Of a stretch of DNA of 64,000 nucleotides, positions 30,900 through 37,257 are shown one piece after another. The number at the start of each line of letters is the position of its first letter. Position 1 is the first letter of the stretch. A program made the translations under genes and the position numbers. Under the pieces are notes generated by a model. The model saw only the letters and a list, made by a program, of their open reading frames with translations, had not been told where the DNA came from and searched no databases. The DNA is from Microbispora sp. H11081 (GTDB taxonomy: Bacteria; Actinomycetota; Actinomycetes; Streptosporangiales; Streptosporangiaceae): assembly GCF_012999535.1 (NCBI RefSeq), contig NZ_JABBWV010000014.1, positions 62,001 to 126,000 of the forward strand, in the 5' to 3' direction.

Positions 30900-30986
30900 T
30901 CACCCCCACGACGGAGGGCGCCACCTGGGCGACGCGGACGCCGGCACCGTGATCGGCCCGGCGAAGCCCGCCGCCTGGGAGGTCAT
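30900..30986 (-). pseudogene. Stub at the nuoJ position (remnant)
   Basis: An ATG at 30986 overlaps the nuoI stop codon in the ATGA manner typical of nuo operons, but the frame runs only 28 codons ([14 protein letters not shown] then unrelated residues) before TGA at 30900. An intact nuoJ would encode a membrane protein of 150 or more residues. The simplest reading is that nuoJ and everything after it (nuoK-N) have been deleted, leaving a start-proximal stub. Based on position and start overlap; the few remaining residues are too short to prove homology. Confidence 0.45.
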
Positions 30987-31681
30987 CGCGCCTCCTCCGG
31001 CCCGTCCTTCCTCTCCGGAGGCGACGCGCTCTTCCTGGGCAGCGAGCCCGGCGGCCGGATGGAGCGGATGTCGCGCATGGCTCTCGGCGGCTCGCGCCGC
31101 GGGCGGCTCTCCTCGGCCTGCGGGGGTTCCGCCGCCGGTCGCGTGTTCTCCCGCGTGTTCTCCCGCTCTGGCACGGACGCGCTCGCGCCCGGCGGCCTCA
31201 CCCGCGCCGTACGGCCGGCCGGCGCGGGGCGGGAACCGGCCGACAGTTCCGTGGGCGGTTCCGCGCCGGCCTCGTGCGCCGGCGGCGGGGGCACGGTGGC
31301 GGCCCACTCGCCCAGTCTGTCCTTCTCGTGCAGGAGGTCGCGGATGTCGTACTCGGCGTACTCGACCTCCGGCGACCAGAACAGCGCGTCGAAGGGGCAC
31401 ACCTCGATGCAGATGCCGCAGTACATGCACAGCGAGAAGTCGATCGCGAAGCGGTCGAGCACGTTGCGGGCGCGCGGGCGGCCGCCCTCGGGCGCGGGCA
31501 GGGTCTCCTTGTGGGAGTCGATGTAGACGCACCAGTCGGGACACTCCCGGGCGCAGAGCATGCAGACGGTGCAGTTCTCCTCCACCAGGGCGATGACGCC
31601 CCGGCTGCGGGCGGGCAGGTCGGGCTGGACCTCCGGGTGCTGCCGCGTCTCCGGCCCGTGCACCGTGGACCGCATGGTCAC
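30983..31681 (-). CDS. nuoI: NADH-quinone oxidoreductase subunit I-like ferredoxin (orphan second copy)
   Basis: A 232-residue 2x[4Fe-4S] protein. GTG at 31681 is chosen because GGAGG lies exactly 7 bases upstream. The two clusters are [12 protein letters not shown] (Cys 37, 40, 43, 47) and [12 protein letters not shown] (Cys 85, 88, 91, 95). The C-terminal 100 residues are a Pro/Glu/Arg-rich tail not found in canonical NuoI. It belongs to the second, partial complex I-type cluster known in actinomycetes, but nuoD and nuoH, normally between C and I, are missing, and nuoJ downstream is a stub. It may persist as a ferredoxin, for example for the KorAB enzyme encoded nearby. Confidence 0.88.
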
Positions 31682-31780
31682 GGCCTGGCCTCCGGCCGGT
31701 CCTTCTCCTGGAATACGCGCCACACTGCTCATCATCGCGCACTGCCGGCGGCGAGCGGACGCGTGGCTCCACCACGACGG

Positions 31781-31876: not shown

Positions 31877-32809
31877 ATGAACGGCTATGGGGGACCGGGA
31901 GGTTACCCGCCCGGAGCGCAAGGACCACAAGGACCACGACGCCCGCAGGGCCAACAGGGCCAACAGGGGCCTCAGCGACAGGGGCCGCAGGAGCACGGGC
32001 GGCAGGGGCCGCAGAATCCGTCGTACGGACAGCCGGGACCGTACGGACAGCAGTGGCCGGGACCCTACGGCGCCCATCCGGCGCCGACCCCCGCACAACC
32101 ACCTGTGCCGCCGCCCCATCGTCCCCCGATCCCTCACCCGCCGGTGCCGCCGCCCGTACGGCGTCCTTCCAGCGTCCCCAGCTACCTGTGGGCGCTCGCT
32201 CCGCTCTACACCTGCGGATTCGGCACTCCCTTCAGCATGCTGTACGCCGCCATCCGCAAGCGCAGCGTGGGGTACGGGGCCGCCGCCGCCGGATACGCCG
32301 CGGCCACCGGCTCGTGGATCTACCTGTCCGAGTTGTACGAGGACGCGACGATGCCGGCTCTGGCGTCCGTCGCCATGGTCCTCTTCGTGCTCGGCCCCTG
32401 GCTCTTCGGCACCGTGCACTCCCTCGCGGTCAGAAGACAGGTCTTCGACGTCGCCGCGCCGTACGCTCCGGGCAACGAGCACGCGCTGGCGGTGGCCCAG
32501 CAGCGCCGCGCCCTGCGCGAGCAGGCCAGGGAACTCGCGGAGCGCGACCCCGCGCTGGCGCGCGAACTGCGGATAGGGCGGCCCGACCTGCCCCGGCAGT
32601 ACGACGACGGCGGCCTGGTCGACCTCAACCGCGCCCCCGCCGCGGTGATCGCCGGCCTGCCCGGCCTGACCCCCGCGCTCGCCGAACAGATCGTGCGCGT
32701 ACGCGACCAGGTCGGCGGCTTCGTCTCGGCCGAGGACGTCTCCGCCGCCGCGTCCCTGCCGCCGAACCTCACCGCCGATCTCGCCGAATACGGCATTTTC
32801 CTCCCATAG
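31877..32809 (+). CDS. Membrane protein with C-terminal helix-hairpin-helix domain
   Basis: A 310-residue protein. Residues 1-95 are a Gly/Pro/Gln-rich collagen-like tail with repeated QGPQ units; three hydrophobic segments follow between about 105 and 180. A charged helix then leads to a ComEA-like helix-hairpin-helix motif (VDLNRAPAAVIAGLPGLTP, about 248-266, with a second hairpin to 300). HhH motifs bind DNA or mediate protein contacts. A -10-like TATCGT (31864-31869) ends 7 bases before the ATG with no ribosome-binding site, suggesting a leaderless mRNA. The DnaA-box cluster lies 56-96 bases upstream. Function unknown. Confidence 0.82.
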   Translation: MNGYGGPGGYPPGAQGPQGPRRPQGQQGQQGPQRQGPQEHGRQGPQNPSYGQPGPYGQQWPGPYGAHPAPTPAQPPVPPPHRPPIPHPPVPPPVRRPSSVPSYLWALAPLYTCGFGTPFSMLYAAIRKRSVGYGAAAAGYAAATGSWIYLSELYEDATMPALASVAMVLFVLGPWLFGTVHSLAVRRQVFDVAAPYAPGNEHALAVAQQRRALREQARELAERDPALARELRIGRPDLPRQYDDGGLVDLNRAPAAVIAGLPGLTPALAEQIVRVRDQVGGFVSAEDVSAAASLPPNLTADLAEYGIFLP

Positions 32810-32909: not shown

Positions 32910-33170
32910 GTGACGTCATCCGAGATCGCCGAATGCAGGGCGGACATGGCCGTGGCCGCCACCGCCGTACGGGAGGTTCTCCAGGCGCTCACCGCCGTCC
33001 CCACGATGTTCGGAGACCGCACCTGGCAGGGCCAGGCAGCCGACCGCTGGGCAGCCGGTTGGAACGCCCGCAGAGCCCAGCTCACCAGGCTGCTCGACGC
33101 CGTGCTCACCGAGCAGCCGCACCTGATCGCCCGTGTGGAGGAGGCGGAGCGCCGCAAAGCCGCCTCGTAG
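32910..33170 (+). CDS. Small WXG100-like protein
   Basis: An 86-residue, almost entirely helical protein with the central turn WQGQAADRWAAGW, i.e. a W-x-G motif about midway, and the size of ESX/type VII secretion partners. GTG at 32910 has GGAGGG 3 bases upstream. Only 23 bases separate it from the large protein gene that follows, a pairing typical of WXG/LXG secretion partners and their cargo. No EccC/EccD secretion genes are in the window, so export would rely on machinery encoded elsewhere. The C-terminus lacks a clear YxxxD/E signal. Confidence 0.7.
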   Translation: MTSSEIAECRADMAVAATAVREVLQALTAVPTMFGDRTWQGQAADRWAAGWNARRAQLTRLLDAVLTEQPHLIARVEEAERRKAAS

Positions 33171-33193
33171 CCGCCGCATTGGGAAGGATCGCC

Positions 33194-35170
33194 GTGGGGG
33201 AGTTCGTCGGAGTCGATCCCGAGAATCTCAAGGAGCTGACCAAACGACTGGGACAGCTTCATGATCTGCTGGCCCGGCACAGTCCGCTCATACAGCAGAA
33301 AATGCAGAAATGGGGCAGCGAAGTCGCGGTCACTTCGCTGCCCGGCCTCATCGCCGCCGCGCTCGACGACGTCCGCGACATGGACGCCCGCACGACCAGG
33401 GCGTACGAACTGGCGAGGCAGCAGGGCTGGAGCGCGCTGAGCGGTGCGCCCGGCGTCCTCGGCCTCACCCTCGACCGGCCGCCCGGCGTGCGGCTGGACT
33501 GGGAGGCGACGGGCCAGAGCGCGTACCAGGGCGAACGCGACGCTGAGACGCTGACCGCCGCCCTCGCGGCCAAGAACCCCGAGGACGCGCGCATCGCCCT
33601 CCTCGGACTGCCGGAGAGCCTGCGGCGGCACATGGCGGACAAGGACTACCAGGCGGCCTTCTGGGCCGGGGCCGGCCCGCTCGCGCTGCGCGCCGCCCGG
33701 GCGCTGTACGAACGAGCGGGTGGCGCGCTGTTCAGCGCCGAGAGCCTGAGCGTGCTGCGGGCGCTCGGAGCGTCCTTGGCCGCCGCCAGCCAGATGCGCG
33801 TCGGCACGGGCAAGGACCGCCGCCCGTTGCTGCCCACCGCCACCCGCGCCACCCTCACCGGGAACTCCGACCCCTGGTCGGTCGGCATGCTCGTGAAGTA
33901 CGGCCCCGAGGGCAGGTCGTGGGACTCCCGCCTGCTCGCCGACCTGACCCGCTCCATGCTCGACGCCCGCGCCGGCGGCAAGGACATCTGGCCACCCACC
34001 CGCGGCACGCTGGAGACCGACGCCGACGCCTCACGCCAGCAGCGGCTCATGGCGGAGTACGACGCCGTGGGGGCCGTCCTCCAGCGGGCCGCGGAGAACG
34101 GCATGGCCGCCCGGCACGTGCTGGGCGATGAGGCGACCGGCCTCAAGTACGCCCGGATGCTCGTCAGCGACTCCTGGCACACCCCCGGCTACGACCCCGG
34201 GCCCTTCCTCAGTTCGTACGCGCACCCGGGCGGCGCGCTTCCACCCACCGGCCAGGTGGACCTGTCCGCGCCCACGGCGGCCTTCCTCAAGGCCGCCGTC
34301 TCCGCGGAACGCGGCACCTCCGTCGACGCCGAGGAATCCGCCTGGTCCGTCGTCCACATCGTCCAAGCCACCGCCGAGTTCTCCAAGCTTCACCCGCAGA
34401 CGGTGCTACCCAAGGAGATCCGGCAGTCTTTGATCTACACCGCCGACCGCTACCTCCCCGACTTGGCCGCCTCCGTCAACGGTTACGGCAACAAAGCCCG
34501 TCCGCACGGCGATCAGCCGGGCGCTCCATGGGTCTCCTACGTCGACAGCACTGCACTGGCCGAATTCCTCAGGCAGGCCTTGCACGACCCCAAGGACCTC
34601 GGCGCCTTCGAGGGGAGGATGGATGCTCGAATCAGCGCGAGCGTAGCCGCGTCCGTCCGGGACCCGAATCAGGACTATCTTGCCCAGATGAGTGCGCTCA
34701 ACGGCCTGACCGCCAGGATCAAGAAGGACTTCAATTTCGACGAAGCTCAGCGGTTGGACGAGAAAGCACAGCGCTTCCAAACCTTTCTGTCCATCATATC
34801 CGGCGGATGGGGCGCGCTCAGTTTCAGCAAAGCACTGGGCGCAGGCACCGCTTCCCAAGTATTCGTCGCCGTCGCGCAACCCCCTGCGAGCGAGCTCATC
34901 AACACCGATCACAAGATAGAAACTTACAAGATCAATGAGGATGAGTTCCGAGCACGCCTGCTCCACGTCAGGATTCCTGTGATCCAAGGGCTTCTGATCG
35001 CCGATTTGATCGATCTACCCGCTAACACCTCCTGGTATCAGAATGGAGTGATCAGCCCGAACGCGGATTTCACCGACTGGTACACCACACATGAAAGAGT
35101 CGTATATGGTGGCCGCAGACTGGATGAATGGGTGAAAGACGCAGAGCACGCCATGGACATACAACGATGA
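33194..35170 (+). CDS. Large WXG-associated protein of unknown function with tail module shared by downstream lipoproteins
   Basis: A 658-residue protein from GTG at 33194 (GGGAAGGA upstream). The N-terminal 80 residues are helical (VDPENLKELTKRLGQLHDLL, then SPLIQQKMQKWGSEV), like the WXG-type targeting domains of actinomycete cargo proteins. The middle is Ala-rich and helical with no catalytic motif I recognise. It resembles the uncharacterised DUF6571 group from memory, not verified. The C-terminal 60 residues (from about 598) form a module ending in PNADFTDWYTTH (622-633) and LDEWVKDAEHA, which recurs in the lipoprotein encoded next. DNA from about 34600 on is noticeably richer in A/T than the first two thirds, suggesting that the tail was acquired separately. 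ATGA overlap with the next gene. Confidence 0.72.
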   Translation: MGEFVGVDPENLKELTKRLGQLHDLLARHSPLIQQKMQKWGSEVAVTSLPGLIAAALDDVRDMDARTTRAYELARQQGWSALSGAPGVLGLTLDRPPGVRLDWEATGQSAYQGERDAETLTAALAAKNPEDARIALLGLPESLRRHMADKDYQAAFWAGAGPLALRAARALYERAGGALFSAESLSVLRALGASLAAASQMRVGTGKDRRPLLPTATRATLTGNSDPWSVGMLVKYGPEGRSWDSRLLADLTRSMLDARAGGKDIWPPTRGTLETDADASRQQRLMAEYDAVGAVLQRAAENGMAARHVLGDEATGLKYARMLVSDSWHTPGYDPGPFLSSYAHPGGALPPTGQVDLSAPTAAFLKAAVSAERGTSVDAEESAWSVVHIVQATAEFSKLHPQTVLPKEIRQSLIYTADRYLPDLAASVNGYGNKARPHGDQPGAPWVSYVDSTALAEFLRQALHDPKDLGAFEGRMDARISASVAASVRDPNQDYLAQMSALNGLTARIKKDFNFDEAQRLDEKAQRFQTFLSIISGGWGALSFSKALGAGTASQVFVAVAQPPASELINTDHKIETYKINEDEFRARLLHVRIPVIQGLLIADLIDLPANTSWYQNGVISPNADFTDWYTTHERVVYGGRRLDEWVKDAEHAMDIQR

Positions 35171-35508
35171 CGGGACGGTTCGCACTCCGCCTGCCCGCCT
35201 TTGCGATTCTCATCGCCCTGGGAGTGGCGGCATGCGACGGTGGCGCCACCTCAGAGGAGAAGACCGATCCGGCACGTCAGCGGAAGGCAGCGATAGAGAA
35301 GGCGGTTCAGTGCCTACTGGATCGCGGCGCTATTCCTGACGAGCAATTGCGGTCCGCGACGTGGCTGAGAGATGGGAAACTGCTTCCCAACGCCGACTTC
35401 ACCGATTGGTACACGACGCACGATAACGTCAAGTACCAGGGACAGACTCTGCTTGACTGGACCGAACAAGCCGAGAAGGCTGGGAACACGTGGAGATGCC
35501 CCCCTTGA
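35167..35508 (+). CDS. Lipoprotein carrying the shared NADFTDWYTTH module (copy 2)
   Basis: A 113-residue exported lipoprotein. The signal peptide ends in the lipobox VAAC (Cys23). The mature part has KAVQCLLDRGAIPDEQL, then WLRDGKLLPNADFTDWYTTH (about 66-85) and ends WRCPP. The 12-residue run PNADFTDWYTTH is identical to one in the tail of the preceding large protein, although synonymous codons differ, implying an old duplication. Two cysteines (in VQCLL and WRCPP) may form a disulfide. Translation is coupled to the large gene by an ATGA overlap. Function unknown; a membrane-tethered partner or decoy of the large protein is one idea. Confidence 0.75.
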   Translation: MTGRFALRLPAFAILIALGVAACDGGATSEEKTDPARQRKAAIEKAVQCLLDRGAIPDEQLRSATWLRDGKLLPNADFTDWYTTHDNVKYQGQTLLDWTEQAEKAGNTWRCPP

Positions 35509-35542
35509 TGGTCACTTCCTCCCCCGAGATCAGCTCTGCCAT

Positions 35543-35929
35543 ATGAACCCCGCAGTGAGGGCGCTCAAGTTTGGGAGCGGGCTTCTCCTGCCCATGGCGT
35601 TCACCCAGGCCGCATGTATCGGAGATGAACAATTCCGCAAGCCAGTGGACGATGAGATAAAACGACGGGGTCGGGCTCTCGTCGCCGTCGTCCACTGCTT
35701 TGTTGACCGCGATGTGATCGCGCGGAGGAGCCGTGCCGTTGCCTTGGTGAGCATCGCGGCGATCCTGCTGCTGACGGGGTGCGACCGTGGCGAGCAGCGC
35801 CCCGCGCCGACCGACAACGAGGTGAAGAGACGCGACGCGGCGCTCGTGGCAGTGGTGCAATGCCTTGTCGATCACGGCGAAGTCCCGCACGCGCACCTCG
35901 AAGACCAGCCGTGGTTGAAGGACAAGTAA
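35543..35929 (+). pseudogene. Chimeric lipoprotein open frame: module copies 3 and 4 fused
   Basis: One open frame from ATG at 35543 encodes two successive lipoprotein starts. The first has a signal-like region ending QAAC (Cys25), then VDDEIKRRGRALVAVVHCFV. The sequence then switches, without completing the module, into a second signal peptide (VALVSIAAILLLTGC, Cys80), followed by TDNEVKRRDAALVAVVQCLV. This is what a recombination between two tandem copies would leave. The frame ends at TAA 35929 just after QPWLKDK, where intact copy 2 continues into its second half. A GTG at 35714 could start copy 4 alone. A stable functional product is doubtful. Confidence 0.6.
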
Positions 35930-35930
35930 G

Positions 35931-36059
35931 GTGCAGCCCAGCGCCGAACTGGTGACTTGGAGAAGCGATCACGCGGAGACTGTCTACGCGGGCAAGACAC
36001 TGCAGGTGTGGGAGGACGAGGCGACGGCGGGGTGGCCGGGGTGGAGGTGCCCGTTGTGA
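35931..36059 (+). pseudogene. Frameshifted second half of module copy 4
   Basis: Beginning two bases after the preceding stop codon, a short frame of 42 residues reads VQPSAELVTWRSDHAETVYA, then GKTLQVWEDEA and ends WPGWRCPL. It aligns with the second half of copy 2 (PNADFTDWYTTH..., GQTLLDW, TWRCPP). The two halves of copy 4 are therefore separated by a stop and frameshift at about 35927-35931. Confidence 0.6.
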
Positions 36060-36109
36060 GGCCACGACCAGCCGGATGGGGGTCGCGCGTCTCAGTCAGG
36101 GAGTCTCTC

Positions 36110-36643
36110 TCAGCCGGAGGCCCAGTCGGGTGGCACGCCCGGGGGCGACATCCTGCGGCGGCTCGGCGAGCCGTCGCCGGACTCCCCCGGTTCTTTGGCC
36201 CCGGGCCAGGCCTTGGCGACGCGGGCGGCGAGCACGAAGTCCTTGCGCAGCGGGTGGCCCTCGAAGCCGTCGGGCAGCAGCAGTGGGCGCAGGTCAGGAT
36301 GGCCGTCGAAGACCACGCCGAACATCTCGTAGGTCTCCCGCTCGTGCCAGTTCGCCCCGCGGAAGACACCGGTGGCGGTCGGCAGGCGGGGGTCGGCGCG
36401 CGGGACCCTGGTGCGCACGAGCAGGTGCGCGAACGCGACCGGGTCGAACACGTGGGCCACGACGGCGAACGTCTCGGGCGGTTCGTCCACGGCGGTGAGC
36501 CAGTCGAAGAACTCGAATCCGGCCGACCGGGCGAAGGCCAGCGCGTCGGCCCACTCCCCGGCGTCCACGTCGAGCACGTCCTGACCGAAGGAGTCGGTGA
36601 CGCGCGAGCCGTACCGCTCGCGCACGGCCTCGACGGCGCTCAT
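36110..36643 (-). CDS. nuoC: NADH-quinone oxidoreductase subunit C-like protein
   Basis: A 177-residue protein matching the 30-kDa/NuoC family: [20 protein letters not shown] and the signature [20 protein letters not shown] followed by [20 protein letters not shown] at 36643 overlaps the nuoB stop codon (ATGA). In complex I this subunit joins the peripheral arm with NuoB and NuoD. The expected next gene, nuoD, is absent: after nuoC comes the converging lipoprotein module on the other strand. The C-terminal 25 residues are Ser/Pro/Arg-rich and may be a readthrough caused by the deletion. Confidence 0.92.
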
Positions 36644-37206
36644 GCGTCCGCCCCCGGGGTCTCGCCCGCGATCTTCTCCTGGAGCTTCATGATGCCGTGC
36701 AGCAGCGCCTCGGGGCGGGGCGGGCAGCCGGGGACGTACACGTCCACGGGAATGATCTGGTCGACGCCCTTGGTGACGCAGTACGAGTCCCAGTACGGCC
36801 CGCCCGAGTTTGAGCAGGCGCCGAAGGAGATGACGTACTTGGGATCGGGCATCCGGTCGTACAACCGGCGTACGGCAGGGGCGATCTTGTCCGTCACCGT
36901 GCCCGACACGATCAGGAGGTCGGCCTGGCGGGGGCCTTCGGGGAACGGATCCACCCCGTAGCGGATGAAGTCGTGCCTGCTCATCGACGTGGCGACGAAC
37001 TCGATGGCACAGCAGGCCAGCCCGAAGTTGAAGACCCACAGGGAATAGCGGCGGCCCCAGTTCAGCACGAACTTCATCGGCTTGGGCGCCAGCCTGGCCA
37101 CCGGCCCCACCGTGGGCATCGGGAGATCGTTCACGGGCATGCGGTCACCGCCATGCCGCCCATTGTCCTCCCCCTGGACCGGCCGGGTCACATCCGTCGT
37201 CGTCAT
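36640..37206 (-). CDS. nuoB: NADH-quinone oxidoreductase subunit B-like protein
   Basis: A 188-residue protein with the conserved NuoB core: [20 protein letters not shown] with the CC pair, [36 protein letters not shown] and [14 protein letters not shown], supplying all four cysteines for cluster N2. ATG at 37206 (MTTTDVTRP) is assumed; an ATG 22 codons later (MPVNDLP) is also possible. It overlaps nuoC. With nuoA reduced to a stub and nuoD and nuoH lost, it cannot form a normal complex I from this locus, but its own cluster-binding residues are intact. Confidence 0.92.
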
Positions 37207-37257
37207 GCCGGACCCGGGGGCCGGCCGGGAGGGTCGTAACACGTCGTAACACGCGGT

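Follow-up and report, generated by a model that had tools for sequence, protein, structure and literature searches.

The locus studied here raises the question of why a large protein, encoded next to a small protein with a WXG-type motif, should share the end of its chain with a predicted lipoprotein encoded directly behind it. The host is a soil bacterium of the Microbispora kind with a 7.38-Mb genome, and the stretch that we analysed (the window, 64,000 nucleotides) lies on its contig C6. A first-pass annotation had described a WXG-motif protein beside a protein of 658 residues, and both open reading frames were confirmed (Table 1), with GTG at 33194 as the start codon of the large gene. Its remark that the tail DNA is richer in A/T than the body was also borne out, the GC content falling from 0.75 at 33500-33999 to 0.57 at 34750-35249, in the last third of the large gene.

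Table 1. Features of the window that belong to the large-protein locus.
Feature	Position	Strand	Basis
Helical WXG-like protein (86 aa), presumed to be exported together with the large protein	32910..33170	+	below-cut-off PF06013 and TIGR03930 matches; synteny
Large protein (658 aa) with an N-terminal helical hairpin, a helical body like DUF6571, a variable C-half and the tail module	33194..35170	+	
Portion of the large gene that is exchanged, from codon ~400 to its stop (left side of the allelic cassette)	34394..35170	+	identity step
Tail module (residues 595-658), a homologue of the lipoprotein domain	34976..35167	+	model and profile comparison
Lipoprotein, 113 aa, module plus two invariant cysteines; presumed immunity protein	35167..35508	+	ORF, lipobox
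Relic A: remnant of another lipoprotein gene (the second), 5' part only	about 35543..35728	+	lipoprotein model iE 2.1e-8, model positions 5-58
Relic B: frame-broken third lipoprotein gene, type II	35747..36059	+	two frames, iE 1.6e-16 and 1.8e-19

The tail and the lipoprotein were compared at several levels. The 12-residue string PNADFTDWYTTH is encoded in both, and a degenerate 36-base pattern for it gave two matches genome-wide, one in the large gene and one in the lipoprotein gene, with 0 matches for a reversed-pattern control; within this genome, the shared string reported in the first pass is confined to these two genes. With a model derived from 13 lipoproteins, the window tail scored iE 3.1e-11, and the tail was recognised in 20 non-redundant loci (iE 3.9e-4 to 4.7e-15). 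Profile-profile comparison of tails with lipoprotein domains gave 99% (E 9e-18, 62 columns), and the remaining C-half gave nothing against the lipoprotein domain. Judged by these comparisons, tail and lipoprotein share one homologous domain, in keeping with the earlier claim that the module also exists in lipoprotein form. Both have the same predicted series of elements: three helices, each separated from the next by two short strands. C49 and C111 of the lipoprotein are invariant in an alignment of 36 rows, tails lack these cysteines, and the two residues probably form a disulfide in the lipoprotein. In a tree that carries a long-branch warning, tails and lipoproteins fell on opposite sides of one branch (96/94).

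The window lipoprotein has the lipobox VAAC; the lipobox pattern fits 20 of 21 loci, L098 having STAC. By its signal peptide with a lipobox cysteine it is a predicted bacterial lipoprotein, and lipidation is likewise predicted. A Pfam scan returned two families, DUF7684 (E 0.033) and Dehydratase_LU (E 0.36), neither of which reached its cut-off, and no match to DUF576, the lipoprotein family of TilA. The structure model had a pLDDT of 80.4, with the module above 90. The several downstream lipoprotein units of the first pass come down to one intact gene and two relics, because the second copy consists of a 5' part only and the third is frame-broken. Relic A runs in frame into the third copy and resembles, by eye, the second lipoprotein of locus L087. 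The frame of the third copy stops at 35927-35929 and continues in another frame to 36059, and over 254 bases (35810-36063) relic B shares 91.3% identity with the lipoprotein region of L092, which is of type II. Second lipoproteins are present in L087 and L097.

For the 658-residue protein, Pfam (E up to 1) and NCBIfam scans returned no family; the Pfam scan gave no LXG domain, and the protein exceeded the gathering score of 0 families, DUF6571 (PF20211) included. DUF6571 was reached at E 0.0044 by 1 of 40 relatives. In a single hhalign comparison, residues 1-519 aligned with DUF6571 proteins (98%, E 1.7e-13, 466 columns), and by this alignment the body is a remote DUF6571 relative. The likeness extends to gene layout: in 2 of the 8 DUF6571 loci examined (L155 and L160), a lipoprotein gene overlaps the large gene, and L160 then has a second one. 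These lipoproteins differ from that of the window in being longer and, by eye, without the tail module; they had no Pfam match. The two loci hint that a large protein followed by lipoproteins may be a wider theme. The term DUF6571 gave no match in the literature searched. The structure model of the large protein (pLDDT 76.9) has an N-terminal hairpin predicted at low confidence and a helical C-half in which residues 538-585 are poorly predicted, and no toxin fold or activity was recognised for the C-half in the searches run.

To follow the locus among relatives, we searched 15 genomes of the genus, 13 of which had a match to the large protein (12 full-length), and 341 genomes of the family, 29 of which had one at E 1e-20; relatives with names belong to Microbispora, Sphaerimonospora, Sphaerisporangium, Planotetraspora and Streptosporangium. 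Among 40 stretches taken, 21 loci have both tail and lipoprotein, comprising 18 near relatives and 3 distant ones (L111, L115 and L116). The start of the lipoprotein gene overlaps the stop of the large gene by four bases in all 18 near loci, as it does in the window (ATGA), and the two genes are 16-25 bases apart in the distant three. With the body defined as residues 1-400 and the C-half as the C-terminal ~258 residues, the 12 Microbispora loci fall into five allelic types. Identity among six types is 0.44-0.60 over the C-half versus 0.90-0.95 in most of the body, and the types are homologous alleles rather than unrelated toxin domains. LXG and Rhs-type polymorphic toxins have a conserved front, a variable end and a downstream partner gene, and the window locus resembles them in all three; classic polymorphic toxins end in unrelated domains, whereas the ends in the window family are alleles of one protein.

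Pairs of loci with close bodies and different cassettes revealed the edges of the variable block. The bodies of L087 and L088 are 96% identical and are followed by cassettes of types I and VI; those of L089 and L091, whose large gene has an early in-frame TAG in L091, are 97% identical and precede types IV and II. In steps of 120 bases, identity of L089 and L091 is 0.92-1.00 over the stretch that starts 1080 bases upstream and ends at codon 400, falls to 0.57-0.75 inside the cassette, and is again 0.92-1.00 beyond the lipoprotein. The protein alignment has its identity step at codon ~400 as well. In steps of 30 bases, all 6 DNA pairs lost identity at nt ~1200 of the large gene, and 5 of the 6 regained it at nt 2250-2280, ~60 bases short of the lipoprotein stop; in L089/L086, the pair that includes a type I cassette like the window's, it was not back by nt 2460. 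These results show that the last ~258 residues and the next gene swap between strains as one block, independently of the body. The variable part thus comprises more than the ~60-residue tail first proposed and begins at a sharp edge near codon 400, and the downstream units are orphans only in part, since the first lipoprotein travels with the C-half while the further copies are orphans or relics. A survey of relatives could have returned a constant tail with no downstream copies; what it returned was the type VII-like polymorphic layout that had been proposed: close relatives share a conserved front but differ in the end, and next comes a linked lipoprotein that carries the module too.

Against PF06013, the WXG-like frame gave E 1.9e-4 and 22.1 bits, under the gathering score of 27.3 bits, and its TIGR03930 match (E 5.5e-4) was also below cut-off. 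Given the former E value and a WQG motif, the protein is likely a divergent WXG100 relative. A WXG-type frame lies directly upstream in 16 of the 18 near loci and also in L115 and L116; none was seen in L098, L099 or the distant L111. A second look at 11 loci found one in L104, L107, L110, L112 and L113. Away from the locus, the genome encodes EccB, which exceeds its curated cut-off, and an EccC/EssC-like ATPase that stays below its own cut-offs. An ATPase containing two FtsK/SpoIIIE stretches adjoins the large gene of L110 and that of L112.

We next considered where the lipoprotein is kept. It is present in 20 of 20 loci with a tail over the model threshold, and in L111, where the tail was placed by alignment only, and in 0 of 7 loci in which the large protein ends early (L104-L109 and L113). 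L110 and L112 have tail-like ends by eye, yet no lipoprotein was found there. In G065, at a contig end, the large gene is gutted and frame-broken and the lipoprotein frame is intact; in L124, a lipoprotein without a large gene lies on a 6.2-kb contig. Within types (8 pairs), dN/dS was 0.15-0.31 for the lipoprotein, 0.10-0.24 for the C-half, 0.18-0.29 for the body and 0.10-0.34 for the tail, except for a tail value of 0.82 in L086/L087.

We favour, with modest confidence, the explanation that the large protein is a polymorphic effector of type VII type and the lipoprotein its allele-specific immunity protein, with toxicity and protection as predictions. In this scheme, the N-terminal hairpin would pair with the WXG-like partner, the pair would be exported by an ESX machine, and the C-half would act at the envelope of neighbouring cells. 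The lipoprotein would sit outside, on the membrane of the producer, and block an effector of the same type as itself; this would probably happen through its pairing with the effector's own tail module or substituting for it, and extra and relic lipoproteins would be remnants of earlier types. We count in favour of this explanation the exchange of cassettes with sharp edges and independently of the body, the lipoprotein's presence in all 20 loci with a tail over the model threshold and in none of the 7 whose large protein stops early, the extra and relic lipoproteins, G065, the gene overlap and the dN/dS values, together with the genomic EccB and EccC-like ATPase, the adjoining ATPase of L110 and L112, and the known cases of TilA and of recombining immunity arrays (see below). 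Counted against it are linkage as a sufficient cause of the joint inheritance, the sub-cut-off WXG match, the tails of L110 and L112 without a lipoprotein, L124, the early TAG of L091, a C-half with no recognised activity or toxin fold, and ends that are homologous alleles, unlike those of classic polymorphic toxins.

The same allelic types could serve non-toxic self-recognition, in which the exported large protein would bind the lipoprotein of same-type sister cells, in hyphal kin recognition or adhesion, and the alleles would diversify so as to mark self. Homologous types, a module that could bring like together with like, some cognate matching (see below) and a C-half without a recognised toxin fold are all consistent with this idea; however, the lipoprotein kept beside the gutted large gene of G065 fits immunity better than it fits a two-part recogniser, as do second lipoproteins and relics of other types, and we regard it as unlikely.

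Distances between loci were used to compare the inheritance of the parts. Among the 12 Microbispora loci, body distances were uncorrelated with those of the C-half (r -0.05) and lipoprotein (r 0.03), whereas lipoprotein distances followed those of the C-half (r 0.81) and the tail (r 0.89). The corresponding values for the 18 near loci were 0.16, 0.29, 0.80 and 0.86. The partial correlation of C-half and lipoprotein given the body was 0.81 (12 loci) and 0.80 (18 loci), reached in 0 of 5000 shuffles each, so that a neighbouring gene varies with the C-terminal part as in type VII polymorphic effectors. Linkage is a sufficient cause for this co-variation: DNA of different types is highly divergent inside the block, internal crossovers are therefore unlikely anyway, and co-inheritance alone is no proof of function. 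This bears on an explanation that we hold to be at least as unlikely as self-recognition, namely that the lipoprotein is a chaperone or surface anchor and merely follows, by linkage, a C-half that varies under phage or other selection. The gene overlap of the near loci agrees with it, and the identity of 0.57-0.75 within the L089/L091 block would leave little room for internal crossovers, but neither the intact lipoprotein of G065 beside a large gene that no longer works nor the accumulation of extra lipoprotein copies is expected of a chaperone or anchor.

Finally, we scored the matching of tails and lipoproteins on a core of 31 columns. Cognate identity exceeded non-cognate identity in all 21 loci taken together (0.478 vs 0.363; 0/20000 shuffles), in the 18 near loci (0.493 vs 0.403; 0/20000) and in the 12 Microbispora loci (0.508 vs 0.432; 10/20000). 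With six loci, one per type, the values were 0.495 vs 0.413 (52/20000 after centring, 92/20000 by BLOSUM62), and with type I left out (8 loci) they were 0.476 vs 0.438 (1044/20000 by identity, 1683/20000 by BLOSUM62). Cognate matching in this core is above chance overall, but without type I it is weak. In each of two columns ahead of the invariant Trp, tail and lipoprotein match in 8 of 13 loci, where 2.8 and 2.0 were expected. The tail of L097 is closer to the second lipoprotein (0.55) than to the adjacent one (0.48), and in L087 the matching runs in the expected direction (0.52 and 0.39); the L097 result and the weakness without type I were also counted against the effector/immunity explanation. 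A tail's best match was the lipoprotein beside it in 6 of 21 loci, and in 13 of 21 that lipoprotein ranked among the top two; near-identical lipoproteins that belong to the same type compete for these ranks. At 269 identical residues, codons differed at 149 (0.55), where the gene's own codon use predicts 0.56; codons thus differ as often as by chance, and the identity of tail and lipoprotein is therefore not a recent copy and gives no sign of recent gene conversion. That the matching is an accident of relatedness, left by one old duplication and parallel divergence of both modules, is the least probable explanation that we weighed: matching that leans on type I, few independent types and the 6 of 21 best matches would suit it, but the shuffles (52/20000 with one locus per type, 0/20000 with 21 loci), the codon differences and the two-sided branch argue against it.

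Immunity, or else kin recognition, might work by self-likeness, the lipoprotein being a tethered, probably disulfide-stapled copy of the tail module, and allele specificity resting on the pairing of like with like. We hold this to be a tentative possibility, doubtful rather than probable; each new allele would then need parallel changes in both genes. We know of no described effector/lipoprotein pair that works by self-likeness, in a literature judged by titles and the starts of abstracts.

To our knowledge, antibacterial use of T7SSa is not established. According to the review PMC10765036, the T7SSb of Bacillota is used in competition, the T7SSa of mycobacteria has other roles, and LXG proteins are not associated with T7SSa. 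An immunity lipoprotein against a type VII toxin is known from Staphylococcus aureus, where TilA acts against TslA. TslA/TilA, as described in passages of PMC10730906, has a neighbouring lipoprotein, a polymorphic effector part and a varying copy number of lipoproteins, and the window locus has these in common with it, export and immunity being predictions for the window; TslA differs in its reversed layout and lipase domain. Those passages mention no domain common to TilA and TslA, whereas the window lipoprotein shares the tail module of its putative effector. In EsaD/EsaG, TspA/TsaI and TelC/TipC, a polymorphic type VII toxin is accompanied by a row of immunity genes that differ from one another, and esaG and tipC recombine at conserved blocks (PMC9484751). 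Compared with the EsaG, TsaI and TipC arrays, the exchanged block of the window family holds the effector C-half as well as the lipoprotein, with a homologous module in both.

If the effector/immunity explanation is true, polymorphic effector/immunity exchange would extend to a DUF6571-like family of actinomycetes, and the locus would provide an example, open to direct testing, in which part of an effector is copied by its immunity protein. The natural chimeras, in which near-identical bodies carry different cassettes, would then be ready-made cognate and non-cognate pairs.

The lipoprotein gene of locus L117 (genome G065) is intact and resembles that of type IV, one of the allelic cassette types, with the large gene present only as frame-broken remnants. 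A distant member of the window's lipoprotein family was found at locus L124 on a 6.2-kb contig, in which no large gene was found.

Lipoprotein genes also overlap the large gene at two DUF6571 loci, L155 and L160, the latter carrying a tandem pair. These lipoproteins are of a different kind from the window's family, and the two tested gave no matches in Pfam.

Features at the window and related loci
Feature	Locus	Position	Strand
Genes flanking cassette	window	30983-31735 and 36110-37242	both -
Gene 5' of WXG-like gene	window	31880-32809	+
DUF6571-type large gene with overlapping lipoprotein gene(s)	L160	3698-5110	reversed
DUF6571-type large gene with overlapping lipoprotein gene	L155	2649-3311	
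ATPase, two FtsK/SpoIIIE stretches	L110	444-3701	+
ATPase, two FtsK/SpoIIIE stretches	L112	5070-9515	-
Large-gene remnants and lipoprotein	L117 (G065)	1-674	reversed
Distant lipoprotein	L124	5410-5841	reversed

Both ATPases directly adjoin divergent large genes, and one has an N-terminal FHA-like match that falls below the cut-off.

The product of the gene upstream of the WXG-like gene, which had no NCBIfam match at 1e-8, begins with a Pro/Gln-rich segment followed by a hydrophobic middle and an ending that by eye resembles a helix-hairpin-helix motif. The genes flanking the cassette are ones that we take to resemble subunits of respiratory complex I, namely NuoB, NuoC and the ferredoxin-like NuoI.
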